Shown piece by piece: positions 6,445-33,308 of a DNA stretch of 39,997 nt. Every line of letters begins with the position of its first letter. Position 1 is the stretch's first letter. The notes beneath the pieces are model-generated. The model did not search any database. It was not told where the DNA came from and worked only from the letters and a program-made list of their open reading frames with translations. Source of the DNA: Candidatus Aenigmatarchaeota archaeon (GTDB taxonomy: Archaea > Aenigmatarchaeota > Aenigmatarchaeia > CG10238-14); the NCBI GenBank assembly GCA_026414305.1, contig JAOAJH010000002.1, forward strand, positions 1 through 39,997, given 5' to 3'. Position numbers and translations under genes: made by a program.

Positions 6445-6858
6445 ATGGAGAAATTCAAAATATCCACACATGCAATCGTAGAAAATGGAAACAAAATTCT
6501 AGTGTTGCAGAAAAAATCTGAAGATGCATTCTCAGCTGACAAGTGGTTTTTACCTGGCGGGGAAATGAAATTCGGTGAAGACACAATAGATTCACTAAAA
6601 AGGACTGTGAAAGAATGCTGTGGCATTGAAATAGAGGTTTTAAGCCCTATAGAGGTTTCAGTTGATGTCAATGAAGAAAAACAAGAACAAAATGTATCAA
6701 TAACATATATATGCGAATACAAATCAGGTCAACTGACAAAACCAAAGAATGTGAAAGAAGCGAAATGGCTTGAACCAAAAAAAGTAATAGACTTGGAAGA
6801 ACTTGATCCAGTACTTGAAAAATCTGTTTACACATACAATGAATTTATTTCAGCATAA
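6445..6858 (+). CDS. Nudix-fold protein with an altered Nudix box
   Basis: The fold is recognisable from the N-terminal strand KISTHAIVENGNKILVLQKK, the LPGGE turn and the C-terminal AKWLEPKKV. Nudix hydrolases cleave nucleoside diphosphates linked to another moiety, using G-x5-E-x7-REUxEExGU. Here the second part reads RTVKECCGI, so two of the three metal-binding glutamates of REUxEE are replaced by Thr and Cys. It may be an inactive, regulatory or differently acting member. It stands as a single gene between the TGS-GTPase and the ferritin-like gene. Confidence 0.82.
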   Translation: MEKFKISTHAIVENGNKILVLQKKSEDAFSADKWFLPGGEMKFGEDTIDSLKRTVKECCGIEIEVLSPIEVSVDVNEEKQEQNVSITYICEYKSGQLTKPKNVKEAKWLEPKKVIDLEELDPVLEKSVYTYNEFISA

Positions 6859-6899
6859 GCTTTTAACAACAAAAACACATTTTATGCTTGGGTGATAGA

Positions 6900-7313
6900 A
6901 TGAATAAAGAAGAGATTTTGAAAGACTTAAATCACGCTCTGACAACAGAATATCAAGCAGTAATACAATATTTAACACATGCAACAATTGCAAAAGGTTT
7001 AGATGCAGATGTTGTTATAACGACATTAAAGCATATAGCTGAAGAAGAAATGAAACATGCAGAAATATTAAGAGAAAGAATATTTTGGCTTGGTGGTACT
7101 CCGACAATGGACGTTGATGAAAGAACTCTTGTAAAAGATTTGAAAAAAATGATACAAGTCAACGCAAAAGCCGAGGAAGATGCAATAGAAATGTACAAAA
7201 AAATACTAAAAAAATTGAATCATATAGAAGATGTAAAGGTATACGAGGCTGTTGAAGAGATTTTAGAAGACGAAATTGAGCATTGGGAAGAATTAAAAAG
7301 GCTTCAAGATTAG
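6900..7313 (+). CDS. Ferritin-like diiron protein (bacterioferritin/Dps-like)
   Basis: A four-helix bundle of 137 residues with carboxylate and His ligands in the expected places: E in TTEYQAVIQY, the EEEMKHAE helix (ExxH), EEDAIEMY and EDEIEHWEE (ExxH). Such proteins oxidise and store iron or remove peroxide. The ATG at 6900 is preceded by GGTGAT at a good distance; an upstream TTG at 6888 would destroy that site's spacing. A Cys-rich micro-ORF with its own ribosome-binding site follows immediately, so the two probably form an operon. Confidence 0.88.
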   Translation: MNKEEILKDLNHALTTEYQAVIQYLTHATIAKGLDADVVITTLKHIAEEEMKHAEILRERIFWLGGTPTMDVDERTLVKDLKKMIQVNAKAEEDAIEMYKKILKKLNHIEDVKVYEAVEEILEDEIEHWEELKRLQD

Positions 7314-7322
7314 GTGAGCTTT

Positions 7323-7370
7323 ATGGGTTGTTGTGGTTGTGGTTCAAAAAAATCCACAAAGAAAAAGTGA
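7323..7370 (+). CDS. 15-residue Cys-rich microprotein MGCCGCGSKKSTKKK
   Basis: The frame ATG...TGA encodes MGCCGCGSKKSTKKK. A ribosome-binding site GGTGAG starts in the stop codon of the ferritin-like gene and lies 5-6 nt before the ATG, so translation coupled to the ferritin gene is likely. Its stop codon is followed directly by the end of the convergent decarboxylase gene, leaving no spare DNA. The CC-x-C cluster suggests metal binding and the basic tail suggests nucleic acid or acidic-partner binding. I do not know a characterised homologue. Confidence 0.6.
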   Translation: MGCCGCGSKKSTKKK

Positions 7371-8399
7371 CTAGTCAACAAAAACTACAGGTAGCTTGGG
7401 TAAATTGCAAAAATCTGTAGTAAAACAATAAGCGCCTGCATTAAGAAAAACAATTTTATCGCCAACTTTTGGTTTTTCTTTTAGTTTTACATCATATCTG
7501 AATATATCCATAGAGCAGGGCGTACATCCTTTAATTACGTAATTTTCTCCTTCATCAACCTCATTTTCAACTAAAAGTTTTATGGGTACTATTATACTGT
7601 CCATTGAACCGTTGTAAACAGATGCATCAACTATTATGTTATTTTCATGTATTGAAAGTATTTCTGTCTCAAGCTTTGTAGGTGGTGCCGCCAAAAATCT
7701 TCCAGGTTCTATTATCATTTCTATGCCCTTATCATTCAACCATTCTCTAAGCTCTTTTATTTTTTGAAAAATAAAGTCAATGTTCCTTGCTGTAGTGTTT
7801 TTATAATCTACTGGCAATCCACCACCTATGTTAACTATGTCAATCATACCCCAAACATCAGCAGCAATCATTTGTGTAAGCTCGTCTTTTATGTTCCACT
7901 CGCTTGTGTTTTGTGTTTTTCTATGAAAATGAATACCTAATTTTTCTATATTTTTTATTTTCCTCAATTTTGGTATCCATTCATTTATCTGTTTTGAATA
8001 CATCCCAAAAACAAAATATTTTCCCGTGTGTATAGTATGCTCCCTCATTTTTAATCTTAAAAGCAGGTTTATTTTGACGTCTTTTTTTTCCAAATATTCA
8101 ATTAAAACTTTCAAATCTGTTTCATTGTCAACAATGAAATTTCTCACTTTTTTTTCTATAAGACTTTTTATTTGATCTTTTGACCAAGCTTGAGCAACAA
8201 ACCAAATCCTACTATGATCTTTTACAAAACTGAAAGATTCCATCATATGTATTGTGAAAAAGCTATCGGTTTCATCCTCAAGGATATGTGCTATTTCTGG
8301 AAAAGTTTTCAAGCTATAAGATATCTTTAGACCTAAATCTTTCAATATTTTATACTGAGACAAAAGTTTGCTTCTGCTGACAATAAACCTACTCTTCAT
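7371..8399 (-). CDS. PLP-dependent ornithine/lysine-type decarboxylase (alanine racemase fold)
   Basis: Fold III PLP decarboxylases remove the carboxyl group of ornithine, lysine, arginine, diaminopimelate or carboxynorspermidine. K31 in SYSLKTF is the Schiff-base lysine. The HFH strand, the phosphate-binding IGGGLPVDY, EPGRFL, and the active-site CTPCSMD with a C-terminal NAGAYCF complete the set. At 342 residues it is shorter than classical ornithine decarboxylases (about 370-420). It overlaps the deoxyhypusine synthase gene by 11 nt, so a role in polyamine supply (for example putrescine or carboxynorspermidine to spermidine) is the likeliest reading. The exact substrate is not fixed. Confidence 0.85.
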   Translation of the reverse strand: MKSRFIVSRSKLLSQYKILKDLGLKISYSLKTFPEIAHILEDETDSFFTIHMMESFSFVKDHSRIWFVAQAWSKDQIKSLIEKKVRNFIVDNETDLKVLIEYLEKKDVKINLLLRLKMREHTIHTGKYFVFGMYSKQINEWIPKLRKIKNIEKLGIHFHRKTQNTSEWNIKDELTQMIAADVWGMIDIVNIGGGLPVDYKNTTARNIDFIFQKIKELREWLNDKGIEMIIEPGRFLAAPPTKLETEILSIHENNIIVDASVYNGSMDSIIVPIKLLVENEVDEGENYVIKGCTPCSMDIFRYDVKLKEKPKVGDKIVFLNAGAYCFTTDFCNLPKLPVVFVD

Positions 8400-29778: not shown

Positions 29779-29816
29779 TGAAACTAGTTTCAAACAATAT
29801 TTGATATACTGTTTCA
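29779..29816 (+). promoter_or_regulatory. Operator-like palindrome flanking the TATA box of the metal operon
   Basis: TGAAACTAGTTTCA at 29779-29792 is a perfect 14-bp palindrome made of TGAAAC and GTTTCA around TA. A third half-site GTTTCA is at 29811-29816. Between them lies the TATA-like TTGATATAC (29801-29809), 26 nt before the ATG at 29831. Half-sites on both sides of a TATA box are a common layout for a repressor or activator of an archaeal operon. Confidence 0.55.
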
Positions 29817-29830
29817 TTCTATATTTTGAC

Positions 29831-30709
29831 ATGAAAAATCAAAAAAAATTGATAAAGATAAAGGGAATGCATTGTAATAGTTGTGTTAAAAACATAGAGA
29901 GCACTGTATCCAAATTATCTGGTGTAAAAAGGGTTAAAGTCGACCTAAAAAAGGAATCTGCAGAAGTTGTATATGATCAGAATAAGATTAATTTTGAAGA
30001 AATAAACAAAAAAATAACATCACTCGGATATTGTGTGTGCGGAAAGACACCATGTGTCTGCAATTCTCATTCGATCAAACAAGGCATCATTTACGGTGTA
30101 ATACCACATTTAGGCTGCATAGCATTTGTAATTGCATCCATAGTTGGCTCTACATTTTTTGTAAACATATTCAAGCCACTTTTAATGAATCCTTACTTTT
30201 TCTATATATTAATAGGAATGTCTTTAATTTTTGCAACAGCATCGTCTTTGATATACTTGAAAAACAATGGATTTCTTTCATTTGATGGTATAAAGAGAAA
30301 GTGGAAATATCTGACTGTGATGTATGGATCAACATTAGGTGTAAATGTTCTTTTTTTCTTTTTTATTTTCCCTTTGTTAACGAATATATCAACAGCATCT
30401 GCATCTGAATATAGCAGCTATCCTAGCTTCAAAATAAGTGTAGATATCCCATGTTCTGGTCATGCGCCACTAATAACAGAGGAACTAAAGTCTTTAGACG
30501 GTGTGGAAAATGTAAAGTTTGAATTTCCAAATTATTTTTACATATCTTATGATCAAGCAAAAATATCAAAATCAGATATACTATCAATTGAAGTTTTTAA
30601 AACATATGCGGCAACCGAAGTCGTTTCAAGCCAAACTCAAAATAATATAAATTCTATGAACAATCAAAACGCCTGTGGAATGTCATCTTGTGGATGTAAT
30701 ATAAGGTGA
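29831..30709 (+). CDS. Membrane protein with an N-terminal HMA domain and a C-terminal HMA-like domain
   Basis: The N-terminus is a heavy-metal-associated domain with GMHCNSC (C15, C18), then CVCGKTPCVC, a possible second metal site. About four membrane segments follow, then an external ferredoxin-like domain beginning DIPCSGHAPLITEELKSLDGV, where the HMA CxxC is replaced by CSGH, and a Cys-rich tail ACGMSSCGC. It may carry a soft metal ion such as copper or mercury across or along the membrane. The ATG at 29831 fits the TATA box. The DUF2318 gene follows, with GGTGA overlapping this stop codon. Confidence 0.78.
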   Translation: MKNQKKLIKIKGMHCNSCVKNIESTVSKLSGVKRVKVDLKKESAEVVYDQNKINFEEINKKITSLGYCVCGKTPCVCNSHSIKQGIIYGVIPHLGCIAFVIASIVGSTFFVNIFKPLLMNPYFFYILIGMSLIFATASSLIYLKNNGFLSFDGIKRKWKYLTVMYGSTLGVNVLFFFFIFPLLTNISTASASEYSSYPSFKISVDIPCSGHAPLITEELKSLDGVENVKFEFPNYFYISYDQAKISKSDILSIEVFKTYAATEVVSSQTQNNINSMNNQNACGMSSCGCNIR

Positions 30710-30714
30710 TTTGC

Positions 30715-31140
30715 ATGAAAATTATATTTTTGATTTTACTTGTAATATTGATATTTTTTGTTGTAAAAGCTGTTATCACACCGTCAGAAGCCCAAGTTAT
30801 AAAAATACCTGTATCTGATATCAATGAAAATGCGAAGTGGTATGAGTATGAAAAAGATGGTGTAATAATAAAGTTTTTTGCTGTCAAAGCAAGGGACGGT
30901 TCAATAAAAACTGCCTTTGATGCATGTGATATATGTTACAAAAACAAAAGAGGCTATAGGCAAGACGGAAATTACATAATTTGCAATAATTGCGGCAATA
31001 AATATTTGATAGATGATTTGGGAAACAAAAACAAAGTCTCTGGCGGTTGCTGGCCTGGTCATTTGTCAAACAGTGTTGAAGGCAATTATATCATTATTAA
31101 AAAATCATATCTTGACAAAGGAATTTGGAGATTTAAATGA
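30715..31140 (+). CDS. DUF2318 membrane-anchored cysteine protein (FtrD-like)
   Basis: One N-terminal membrane segment (KIIFLILLVILIFFVVKAV) anchors an outside domain of the DUF2318/FtrD type: CDICYKNKRGYRQDG, then CNNCGNKYLIDDLG, then GGCWPGHL. The paired cysteines and the extra GGC are thought to bind iron-sulfur or another metal site in the family, which is linked to iron uptake and metal transport. The ATG at 30715 has GGTGA upstream; the apparent GTG start at 30706 lies inside that site. Its stop codon overlaps the ATG of the copper ATPase. Confidence 0.82.
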   Translation: MKIIFLILLVILIFFVVKAVITPSEAQVIKIPVSDINENAKWYEYEKDGVIIKFFAVKARDGSIKTAFDACDICYKNKRGYRQDGNYIICNNCGNKYLIDDLGNKNKVSGGCWPGHLSNSVEGNYIIIKKSYLDKGIWRFK

Positions 31141-33308
31141 AAAATATAAAACTAAAAATATCTGGAATGCATTGTGCAAGCTGTTCACAAAACATAGAAT
31201 CATCTCTGAAAAATTCAAATGGTGTATTAAAGGCAAATGTAAATCTAGCCGCAGAAACTGTATTTGTTGAATATGATGAAAGCTTAACAAATCAAGAAAA
31301 AATATCAAAAGTTATAGAAAGTCTTGGATATAATGTTTTAAAAAGTGATGATGTTTTTAATGATGTAGAAACAAAAAAACTAAAAAAATTATTCATAATT
31401 TCCATGATTTTTACAATACCTGTGTTTTTGATATCAATGCCTTTTAAGTGGTTTGGTGTTCAAGTACCGTATGAAAATATAATTTTACTTTGTTTATCAA
31501 CACCAGTGCAGTTTTTTGTTGGATACATCTTCTACAAAGGCTCATTTTATTCATTAAAAAATAGAAAAGCGAACATGGACACTCTTATAGCAATAGGTAC
31601 ATCTGCTGCATACTTTTACAGTGTTCTTTCATTTTTTTATCCGTCAAAATTTGGAGATCACCTTTATTTTGAAACATCAACTGTGATAATAACTTTTGTA
31701 ATTCTTGGGAAATGGATGGAAGCTGTGACAAAAGGTAAAGCATCACAAGCAATAAAAAAACTAATAGAAATACAACCAAAAAAAGCAATCATAATTAAAG
31801 ACGGTAAAGAAATTGAAATAGATATCAGCCTAATTAAAAAAGACGACATAATTGTTGTTAAGCCAGGTATGAAAATCCCTGTTGATGGTGTTATAACTGA
31901 AGGTTATGCAACAATAGATGAATCTATGTTGACTGGTGAAAGTATTCCAGTTGAAAAAACAAAAGGACAAGAAGTTTTTGGAGGTTCCATCAACAAAAAT
32001 GGATATATTCTTTTCAAAGCAACGAAAGTAGGTGAAGACACTATGATAAATCAAATAATAAGACTGATTGAAGATGCTCAAATGAAAAAAGCACCAATAC
32101 AAAAAATCGCTGACAAAATAAGCTCTATTTTCGTTCCAACTGTTTTTTCAATAGCTGTTTTATCTTTCTTTATATGGTATTTTGTTTTATCTCAAAGTCT
32201 TTATTTTGCATTAAGTATTTTCATATCTGTGCTGATAATAGCATGTCCATGTGCATTGGGTCTAGCTACTCCAACGGCAATAATGATGGGAAGTAGCAAA
32301 GGTGCTGAAATGGGCATTTTAATAAAAAATACCGAATCGATTGAGAAAATCAACAAAATAGATACAGTCGTTTTTGACAAAACTGGAACACTTACAAAAG
32401 GCAAACCAGAAGTAGTCGATATCATCTCTTTTGGTAAAAATAACACACTTCTTTATGCTGCTATTGCTGAAAAAAATTCAGATCACCCGTTGGCTGAAGC
32501 TGTAATAAAAAAAGCTGAAGAAACTGGAATAAAAATACCAAACCCATCTCAATTCAATTATATACCTGGAAATGGAATTGTTGCCAAGTATAAAGGTGCC
32601 AAAATATTTGTAGGTAACAGAAATTTGATGAAATCCAATCACATAGATTTTAAAGAAAATGAAGGCAAAATACAAGAATTTGAAAATCAAGGCAAGACAG
32701 TTTTTCTTGTCGCTCTAAACAAAAAGTTAATTGGTTTTATTTGCATTTCTGACAGCATAAAAGATGAAGCAAAAATAGTAATAGACAATTTGAAAAAAGA
32801 TGGAAAGGAAATTTATATGATTACAGGGGATAATTTTAGAACTGCAAATTACATGGCAAGACAGCTTGGGATAAACAACATAATAGCTGAAGTTATGCCA
32901 GATGAAAAAGAGAATGAAGTTCAAAAACTTCAGCAAAAAGGAAAAAAAGTTTTGATGATCGGGGATGGAATTAATGATGCGCCAGCATTGGCTAGAGCAG
33001 ATGTTAGTATGGCTATAGGCGCTGGAAGTGATATTGCTATTGAAACTGGAGATATCATACTTGTTAAAAGCAGCCTTCTTGATGTAATAAATGCCATTAA
33101 ATTGAGCAAATTGACAATGAAAAAGATAAAACAAAACATGTTTTGGGCGTTCTTCTATAATTCACTGGGAATACCTATAGCAGCTGGGGCATTATATCCA
33201 TTCACAGGGTTTTTGTTAAATCCTATGATAGCAGGAGTTGCTATGGCTTTTAGCTCTGTTTCTGTGATTATAAACTCTTTGACGATAAAAAAATTCAAAC
33301 CTCTATAG
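31137..33308 (+). CDS. copA: CopA-type heavy-metal (P1B) ATPase
   Basis: P1B ATPases pump soft metal ions across the membrane. One N-terminal HMA domain has GMHCASC (C13, C16). The membrane transport motif is C370-P-C372 in IACPCALGLATP, which is typical for Cu+ (and Ag+) or Zn/Cd pumps. D414-KTGTLTKG is the phosphorylation site, with SDHPLAEAV (the HP motif) and GDGINDAPALA. A CPC motif with these surroundings favours Cu+. At 723 residues the gene is complete, and it overlaps the upstream DUF2318 gene by 4 nt, which places the metal proteins in one operon. Confidence 0.95.
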   Translation: MKNIKLKISGMHCASCSQNIESSLKNSNGVLKANVNLAAETVFVEYDESLTNQEKISKVIESLGYNVLKSDDVFNDVETKKLKKLFIISMIFTIPVFLISMPFKWFGVQVPYENIILLCLSTPVQFFVGYIFYKGSFYSLKNRKANMDTLIAIGTSAAYFYSVLSFFYPSKFGDHLYFETSTVIITFVILGKWMEAVTKGKASQAIKKLIEIQPKKAIIIKDGKEIEIDISLIKKDDIIVVKPGMKIPVDGVITEGYATIDESMLTGESIPVEKTKGQEVFGGSINKNGYILFKATKVGEDTMINQIIRLIEDAQMKKAPIQKIADKISSIFVPTVFSIAVLSFFIWYFVLSQSLYFALSIFISVLIIACPCALGLATPTAIMMGSSKGAEMGILIKNTESIEKINKIDTVVFDKTGTLTKGKPEVVDIISFGKNNTLLYAAIAEKNSDHPLAEAVIKKAEETGIKIPNPSQFNYIPGNGIVAKYKGAKIFVGNRNLMKSNHIDFKENEGKIQEFENQGKTVFLVALNKKLIGFICISDSIKDEAKIVIDNLKKDGKEIYMITGDNFRTANYMARQLGINNIIAEVMPDEKENEVQKLQQKGKKVLMIGDGINDAPALARADVSMAIGAGSDIAIETGDIILVKSSLLDVINAIKLSKLTMKKIKQNMFWAFFYNSLGIPIAAGALYPFTGFLLNPMIAGVAMAFSSVSVIINSLTIKKFKPL

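Follow-up and report, generated by a model that had tools for sequence, protein, structure and literature searches.

A cysteine- and lysine-rich micro-ORF behind an archaeal ferritin-like gene, and frames of the same build at archaeal copper loci

Between a ferritin-like gene and a convergent decarboxylase gene, the genome of a Candidatus Aenigmatarchaeota archaeon has space for a reading frame of only 15 residues, three of which are cysteines and five lysines. Does so short a frame encode a protein, and if it does, is that protein a partner of the ferritin or a member of something more widespread? The stretch of DNA that we analysed (the window) comprises 39,997 nucleotides of contig JAOAJH010000002.1. 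The genome to which it belongs (G000) amounts to 819 kb, and the contig carrying the micro-ORF to 178 kb.

Evidence that the micro-ORF is coding

The micro-ORF occupies positions 7323–7370 of the plus strand and reads MGCCGCGSKKSTKKK, closed by a TGA stop at 7368–7370; it combines a CC-x-C cluster with a lysine-rich tail and has a net charge of +5. Directly upstream lies the gene for a four-helix protein of the ferritin-like or bacterioferritin-like kind (6900–7313, plus strand, 137 aa; ATG at 6900, TAG at 7311–7313), which matches Pfam PF00210 (E = 2.8e-18) and has bacterioferritin 9qq4 as its nearest solved relative (E = 2.2e-19). A Shine-Dalgarno sequence, GGTGAG (7313–7318, plus strand), takes the last base of the ferritin TAG as its first, and five bases separate its GGTGA from the ATG at 7323. 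The 3' end of the 16S rRNA of the same genome, GGATCACCTCC (G000:C12:14760), is complementary to GGTGA and provides the matching anti-Shine-Dalgarno. On the other side, the gene for a PLP-dependent decarboxylase of the lysA/Orn-DAP family (7371–8399, minus strand) converges on the micro-ORF, its stop codon beginning at 7371 where the micro-ORF ends at 7370. An earlier sequence-only reading had described the ribosome-binding site overlapping the ferritin stop, the cysteine cluster, the basic tail and the exactly filled gap, all of which are present in the sequence. A detail missing from it is that the ferritin gene and the micro-ORF share one reading frame, running TAG-GTG-AGC-TTT and then ATG.

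The nearest named relatives of this genome are two Candidatus Aenigmatarchaeota MAGs, DRTY-6_1_bin_65 (G003) and DRTY-7_1_bin_34 (G001). The first of these encodes the identical 15 residues in the same place with four base differences, all of them synonymous or stop-to-stop, and retains GGTGA. Because a random single change preserves the peptide with a probability of only 0.19–0.25, four silent differences out of four are expected by chance at 0.001–0.004, and for this one genome pair the pattern is that of purifying selection on the reading frame. Between the same two genomes the ferritin gene has 48 base differences (38 silent, 7 replacement codons) and the decarboxylase gene 158 (100 silent, 37 replacement). 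The nine-base spacer at 7314–7322 (plus strand) carries three base differences in two codons, both replacements and none silent (VSF in G000, VNI in G003), so that it is not conserved as protein. When 145 relatives were searched with a strict MGCCGC pattern, a matching frame was found in one other genome only, again G003 and in the same place. A match in G019 proved to be out of frame, inside a SuhB-like gene, and was rejected.

A frame of this length might have arisen by chance where two convergent genes leave little space between them, the complement of its lysine codons, rich in T, acting as the terminator of the decarboxylase gene. The gap is indeed short, the minus strand is rich in T across the lysine codons, and the third congener, G001, has no such frame; nevertheless, the silent-only substitutions, the conserved Shine-Dalgarno and stop codon, and the fact that it is the sole frame of its kind on the 178-kb contig, where shuffled sequence gives 0.1, make a chance origin very unlikely. 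Less probable again is that the frame represents the end of a longer ferritin, reached by readthrough of the TAG or left over from a former C-terminal tail. The shared frame, which would arise by chance one time in three, the TAG stop in both G000 and G003, and the CxC tail (...MGTCECT) with which another ferritin of the family (L009) ends are all in keeping with such an origin. The bridging codons, however, change residues while the micro-ORF does not, GGTGA is kept at the usual distance from the ATG, and these observations favour separate initiation over readthrough; frames of the same build are moreover free-standing in relatives. We therefore regard readthrough as extremely improbable and the micro-ORF as very likely to be a translated microprotein, as judged from these sequence comparisons. 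The silent-only conservation in G003, together with the Shine-Dalgarno-led CC/lysine micro-ORFs of relatives described below, supports the earlier view that a coding frame small enough to escape gene callers lies here, with a ribosome-binding site to itself.

The link to ferritin

The sequence-only reading had suggested that MGCCGC frames be sought behind the ferritin-like genes of relatives, and the outcome was divided: the frame is there in G003, but is missing behind the ferritin of G001 and behind those of five more distant relatives. The G001 ferritin, 83% identical, is encoded at another site, flanked by glutaredoxin-like and ScpA-like genes, and in that genome the NUDIX and decarboxylase genes abut exactly where G000 and G003 hold the ferritin gene and the micro-ORF. 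Set against L015 480–500, window positions 6859–7370 look as though a 0.5-kb unit made up of these two had been cleanly gained or lost. When GTDB genome contigs were scanned for the ferritin, the two known congeners alone came up. The coupling of ferritin and micro-ORF is thus weak and confined to two close congeners, and since the frame is missing in G001 and the five distant relatives, the linkage is either recent or since lost, and not general.

These data bear on whether the peptide could serve the ferritin-like protein as a dedicated iron partner. It would then be a pared-down counterpart of the bacterioferritin-associated ferredoxin Bfd, binding iron or an Fe-S centre and aiding iron loading or release. 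The translationally coupled arrangement in G000 and G003, and the compact unit that ferritin and micro-ORF form between genes that abut in G001, would suit such a role. It is hard to reconcile with the missing frames just described and with the other micro-ORFs of the same build, none of which adjoins a ferritin and most of which lie at copper loci; three cysteines could also not form a four-Cys Fe-S site unless the peptide dimerised. A dedicated ferritin partner of any kind is unlikely, and the iron-binding Bfd analogue somewhat more so. The earlier proposal of a tiny iron or copper chaperone or ferritin partner accordingly divides: a copper role gains indirect support from the frames at copA and PadR loci, while an obligate partnership with ferritin is not supported.

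CC/lysine micro-ORFs concentrate at copA/PadR-TRASH promoters

By its build, the window micro-ORF is one instance of a recurring kind of archaeal peptide of 9–25 residues in which a Cys-Cys motif, often CC-x-C, accompanies a lysine-rich stretch. A first pattern, GGTG-(3-10)-ATG-(3-6)-TGYTGY-N12-AARAAR, run over 156 genomes of the phylum, matched seven genomes and gave one control match; two of the matches were spurious and five were genuine micro-ORFs, namely those of G000 and G003 and new ones in G007 (MSGCCGSGKKKKK), G080 (MGGCCRKKKKKE) and G010 (MECCCCGCKKTETKKTVKKIAKKKK). Two of the three new frames (G007, G080) have as neighbours a divergently oriented copper ATPase gene and the gene of a PadR-type regulator whose C-terminus is rich in cysteine, neither of which the pattern searched for. 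A second, lysine-first pattern ending in CC-stop gave five matches and no control match over 294 genomes. Four were in frame (two in G036, one each in G077 and G061). Three of these lie upstream of copA, and the remaining one falls in the same region at a distance of about 7 kb. The ten genomes of G214's phylum contributed one further case, MDKKKPCCH in G296, and the 34 genomes of G229's phylum one in-frame match, MGCCGCTEKKNEKKKKYYDKERVNE in G298. The latter, a Shine-Dalgarno-led frame from another archaeal phylum (L217 1510–1587, downstream of a 285-aa ORF), is the closest in sequence to the window peptide, and the 1.5 kb on either side of it contain no copper gene. Pattern matches in L020–L024, L030, L031, G234 and L218 were judged spurious once translated. 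In all, the searches took in 324 genomes.

Loci were also picked by regulator only. The PadR protein of G007 was used as a query against 294 archaeal genomes, 141 of which gave a match, and the best 30 PadR-TRASH loci were taken with 1.5-kb flanks and scored by a fixed rule (Shine-Dalgarno, ATG, 8–25 aa, CC, at least 25% K/R), a rule that the window frame passes as well. Ten of these best 30 loci, from ten genera, carry a CC/lysine micro-ORF: G007 (above), G214 (MDGKKKPCC), G138 (MVDCCCGVKKSKKKKGGCCGKC), G077 (MAKKKERKHGCC), G061 (MAKKKKQGGGCC), G121 (MKKKKEQKKGSCCGNC), G080 (above), G124 (MAGKKKGAEKEACCSGCSCK), G036 (MAKRKKKQGCC) and G095 (MGCCGKKKKRKK). Background sequence of 396 kb (G000, G036, G077 and G007, outside the window) contains one such frame and shuffled loci give 0.07. 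The resulting rate ratio is 40 with a binomial p = 8e-7, a value that is indicative because the genomes are related and not fully independent and because the rule was set with the first examples already known. The next 19 PadR loci add G107 (MMEDRRKNKTDKKKKPACCR) and G141, and about two thirds of PadR loci are without such a frame. Both in other Aenigmatarchaeota families and in one further phylum, CC/lysine peptides concentrate at copA/PadR-TRASH promoters. Near the PadR-TRASH regulator of G174 there is also a Shine-Dalgarno-led cysteine micro-ORF, MCGACGGGGN (L036 1292–1324, minus strand).

Seen from the side of the ATPase, TIGR01511 is matched at E<=1e-120 in 53 of 156 genomes, and ten of those 53, with the loci of the preceding searches included, have a CC/lysine frame of the strict kind next to copA or PadR, so such frames are common but not universal near copA. 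Nine ATPases neighbouring micro-ORFs pass the TIGR01511 copper-ATPase cut-off, as does the window's own, and the regulators beside the micro-ORFs are PadR proteins, several with a TRASH-like C-terminus. The peptides of G121 and G141 are identical with silent changes between them, and those of G214 and G296, both directly upstream of copA, keep their composition across genera despite an indel. The lysine run is not an artefact of AT content, since lysines are still encoded at the G080, G061 and G296 loci, where GC is 55–57%. At 9–25 residues the peptides offer too little sequence for homology statistics or proof of common descent, and their likeness could possibly reflect convergence instead. 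No description of such CC/lysine peptides was found in the literature, mainly openly accessible papers. Through these genome comparisons a single unusual frame becomes a recurrent and testable kind of microprotein, which makes the finding worth following.

For the copies upstream of copA the main rival explanation is a regulatory leader ORF: translating the CC codons would report on the supply of copper or cysteine and thereby set expression of the gene that follows, and the peptide product would have no importance of its own. In G214, G296, G107, G124, G121, G141 and G036 the micro-ORF comes first and copA follows it directly, and CruR offers a precedent for a copper-sensing uORF (PMC9426467). 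In the window and in G007, however, the next gene is convergent and no co-oriented gene directly follows the frame; an Rfam scan of 6700–7700 also gave no match. Among the peptides CC may come first or last and the lysines before or after it, so that composition is kept and position is not. A leader function is, on balance, improbable.

The peptide could alternatively be read as a zinc knuckle. Its C3-C-G-C6-G segment forms one CXXCG half-knuckle, and two peptides sharing a zinc would make a tiny RNA- or DNA-binding homodimer with lysine tails on the nucleic acid. CXXCG occurs in the window and G010 peptides, and haloarchaea commonly possess C(P)XCG micro-zinc-finger proteins according to the available parts of two reports (PMC11241148, PMC10716476). 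Each such protein, as far as the same parts describe them, has a fold and two or more of the motifs, whereas most copper-locus peptides have CC alone without CXXC, and the genomic concentration is at copper ATPases. We give the zinc reading as little credence as the leader ORF.

How far the copper context extends to the window peptide itself is a separate matter. The window does contain a copper operon (29801–33308), consisting of an HMA membrane protein that ends CGMSSCGCNIR (29801–30709), an FtrD-like protein (30706–31140) and CopA, a copper-translocating P-type ATPase (31137–33308, plus strand). This copA is 24 kb from the micro-ORF and is context, not a demonstrated part of the same system, and the G007 PadR query found no PadR-TRASH match in G000. 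The window micro-ORF, not being at a copA/PadR-TRASH locus, is consequently grouped with the CC/polylysine kind by build and not by locus. The peptides most like it, those of G010 and G298, also lie outside copper loci within the flanks examined, and because neither its own copy nor these lookalikes are beside copA, its copper link is one of resemblance only. There may be two subsets, CC/polylysine peptides at copA and CCxC/lysine peptides elsewhere.

Just upstream of several micro-ORFs there is a TATA-like stretch with a TATC/GATA element, GATATATC-N6-GATATAT, after which the micro-ORF is often the first gene. The element gives 44 redundant matches in 909 kb of PadR loci versus one in the 396-kb background, with copA/PadR intergenic examples at L032 1361, L044 1955, L047 1933 and L084 4553, and is probably the operator of the PadR-TRASH regulators, common to several archaeal phyla. 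In the window it has only matches with 2–3 mismatches, none at the ferritin or copper-operon promoter.

The copper regions of Aenigmatarchaeota also contain a second type of microprotein, 21–30 aa long, basic and finishing with ECC or KCC followed by a few more residues (for example MKRIKKIFKIIIRAIEECCKNG and MMLKKLESKLGKMKSKISETMKEVLECCFE), which is probably an amphipathic helix. Its genes mostly overlap or abut the preceding gene and cluster with a HCPLCTAATGAAVAVTR membrane protein (L215 7332–7400, L120 13242–13322 and, on the minus strand, L211 172–243, L192 4014–4079, L127 2711–2803 and L193 1081–1173). Small predicted membrane or secreted proteins ending VGGC-stop recur in these regions as well (L120 7248–7616, L121 2077–3043, L193 2701–2967).

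A candidate minimal metal-binding peptide and its closest known systems

Taken together, the best reading of the window micro-ORF is probably that of a translated microprotein that binds metal through thiolates, most likely Cu(I), as a minimal chaperone or buffer. Thiolate metal binding is a reasonable expectation from the cysteine cluster; copper in particular, although the leading candidate ligand, falls a little short of an even chance. Adjacent thiolates would bind a soft metal, and the lysine stretch might confer solubility or allow docking on acidic partners such as heavy-metal-associated domains, on nucleic acid or on the membrane. Attached to the ferritin-like gene, the window micro-ORF would be made from the same transcript and could buffer copper or another thiophilic metal beside iron storage. 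For DPANN archaea more broadly we tentatively propose, with rather less assurance, a previously undescribed class of 9–25-residue Cys-Cys/polylysine microproteins acting as minimal Cu(I) chaperones or buffers in the place that CopM holds in Sulfolobales, the ferritin-coupled peptide being an offshoot.

If the proposal is true, few known genetically encoded metallochaperones would be as small as these peptides. Should the copper operons of ultra-small archaea regularly begin with a gene for a dozen residues that include two cysteines and a lysine run, metallochaperone function would be reducible to a synthesisable peptide, and reduced archaeal genomes would hold an unread layer of genes, as frames so short are dropped by annotation pipelines. 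The comparisons supply a simple search rule for metaproteomics: a Shine-Dalgarno sequence, CC and lysines, next to copA.

Among known systems, Bfd is a small protein of about 64 aa, encoded next to ferritin, in which four cysteines ligate a [2Fe-2S] cluster; the window peptide, with three cysteines in 15 residues, likewise stands beside a ferritin and shares nothing further. CopZ/Atox1-type chaperones have an HMA fold and a CXXC motif and use two cysteines to deliver Cu(I) to CopA. Delivery by two cysteines is also what is proposed here, but the peptides lack the HMA fold, have adjacent CC in place of CXXC and are about one fifth the size. The Haloferax C(P)XCG micro-zinc-finger proteins resemble the window peptide as archaeal microproteins with clustered cysteines, but are larger and, in the available part of the source (PMC11241148), have at least two motifs against its single CXXCG. 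CruR/DUF2946 is a copper-responsive upstream ORF whose product contains CXXC and has the arrest motif RAPP at its C-terminus (PMC9426467). It shares with the micro-ORFs a cysteine-containing frame at the head of a copper operon; it is larger, however, and the micro-ORFs have no arrest motif and in some cases no co-oriented gene directly downstream, the window frame having no RAPP and a convergent gene downstream. In the copT-copM-copA cluster of Sulfolobales, copM is co-transcribed with copA and encodes a protein of 56–71 aa with a TRASH domain (PMC3595675). The peptides described here differ in having 9–25 residues and no domain (15 in the window copy, which is not beside copA) and a regulator of PadR and not Lrp type, yet several of the copper-locus micro-ORFs are, like copM, small, upstream of copA and near a TRASH-type regulator.
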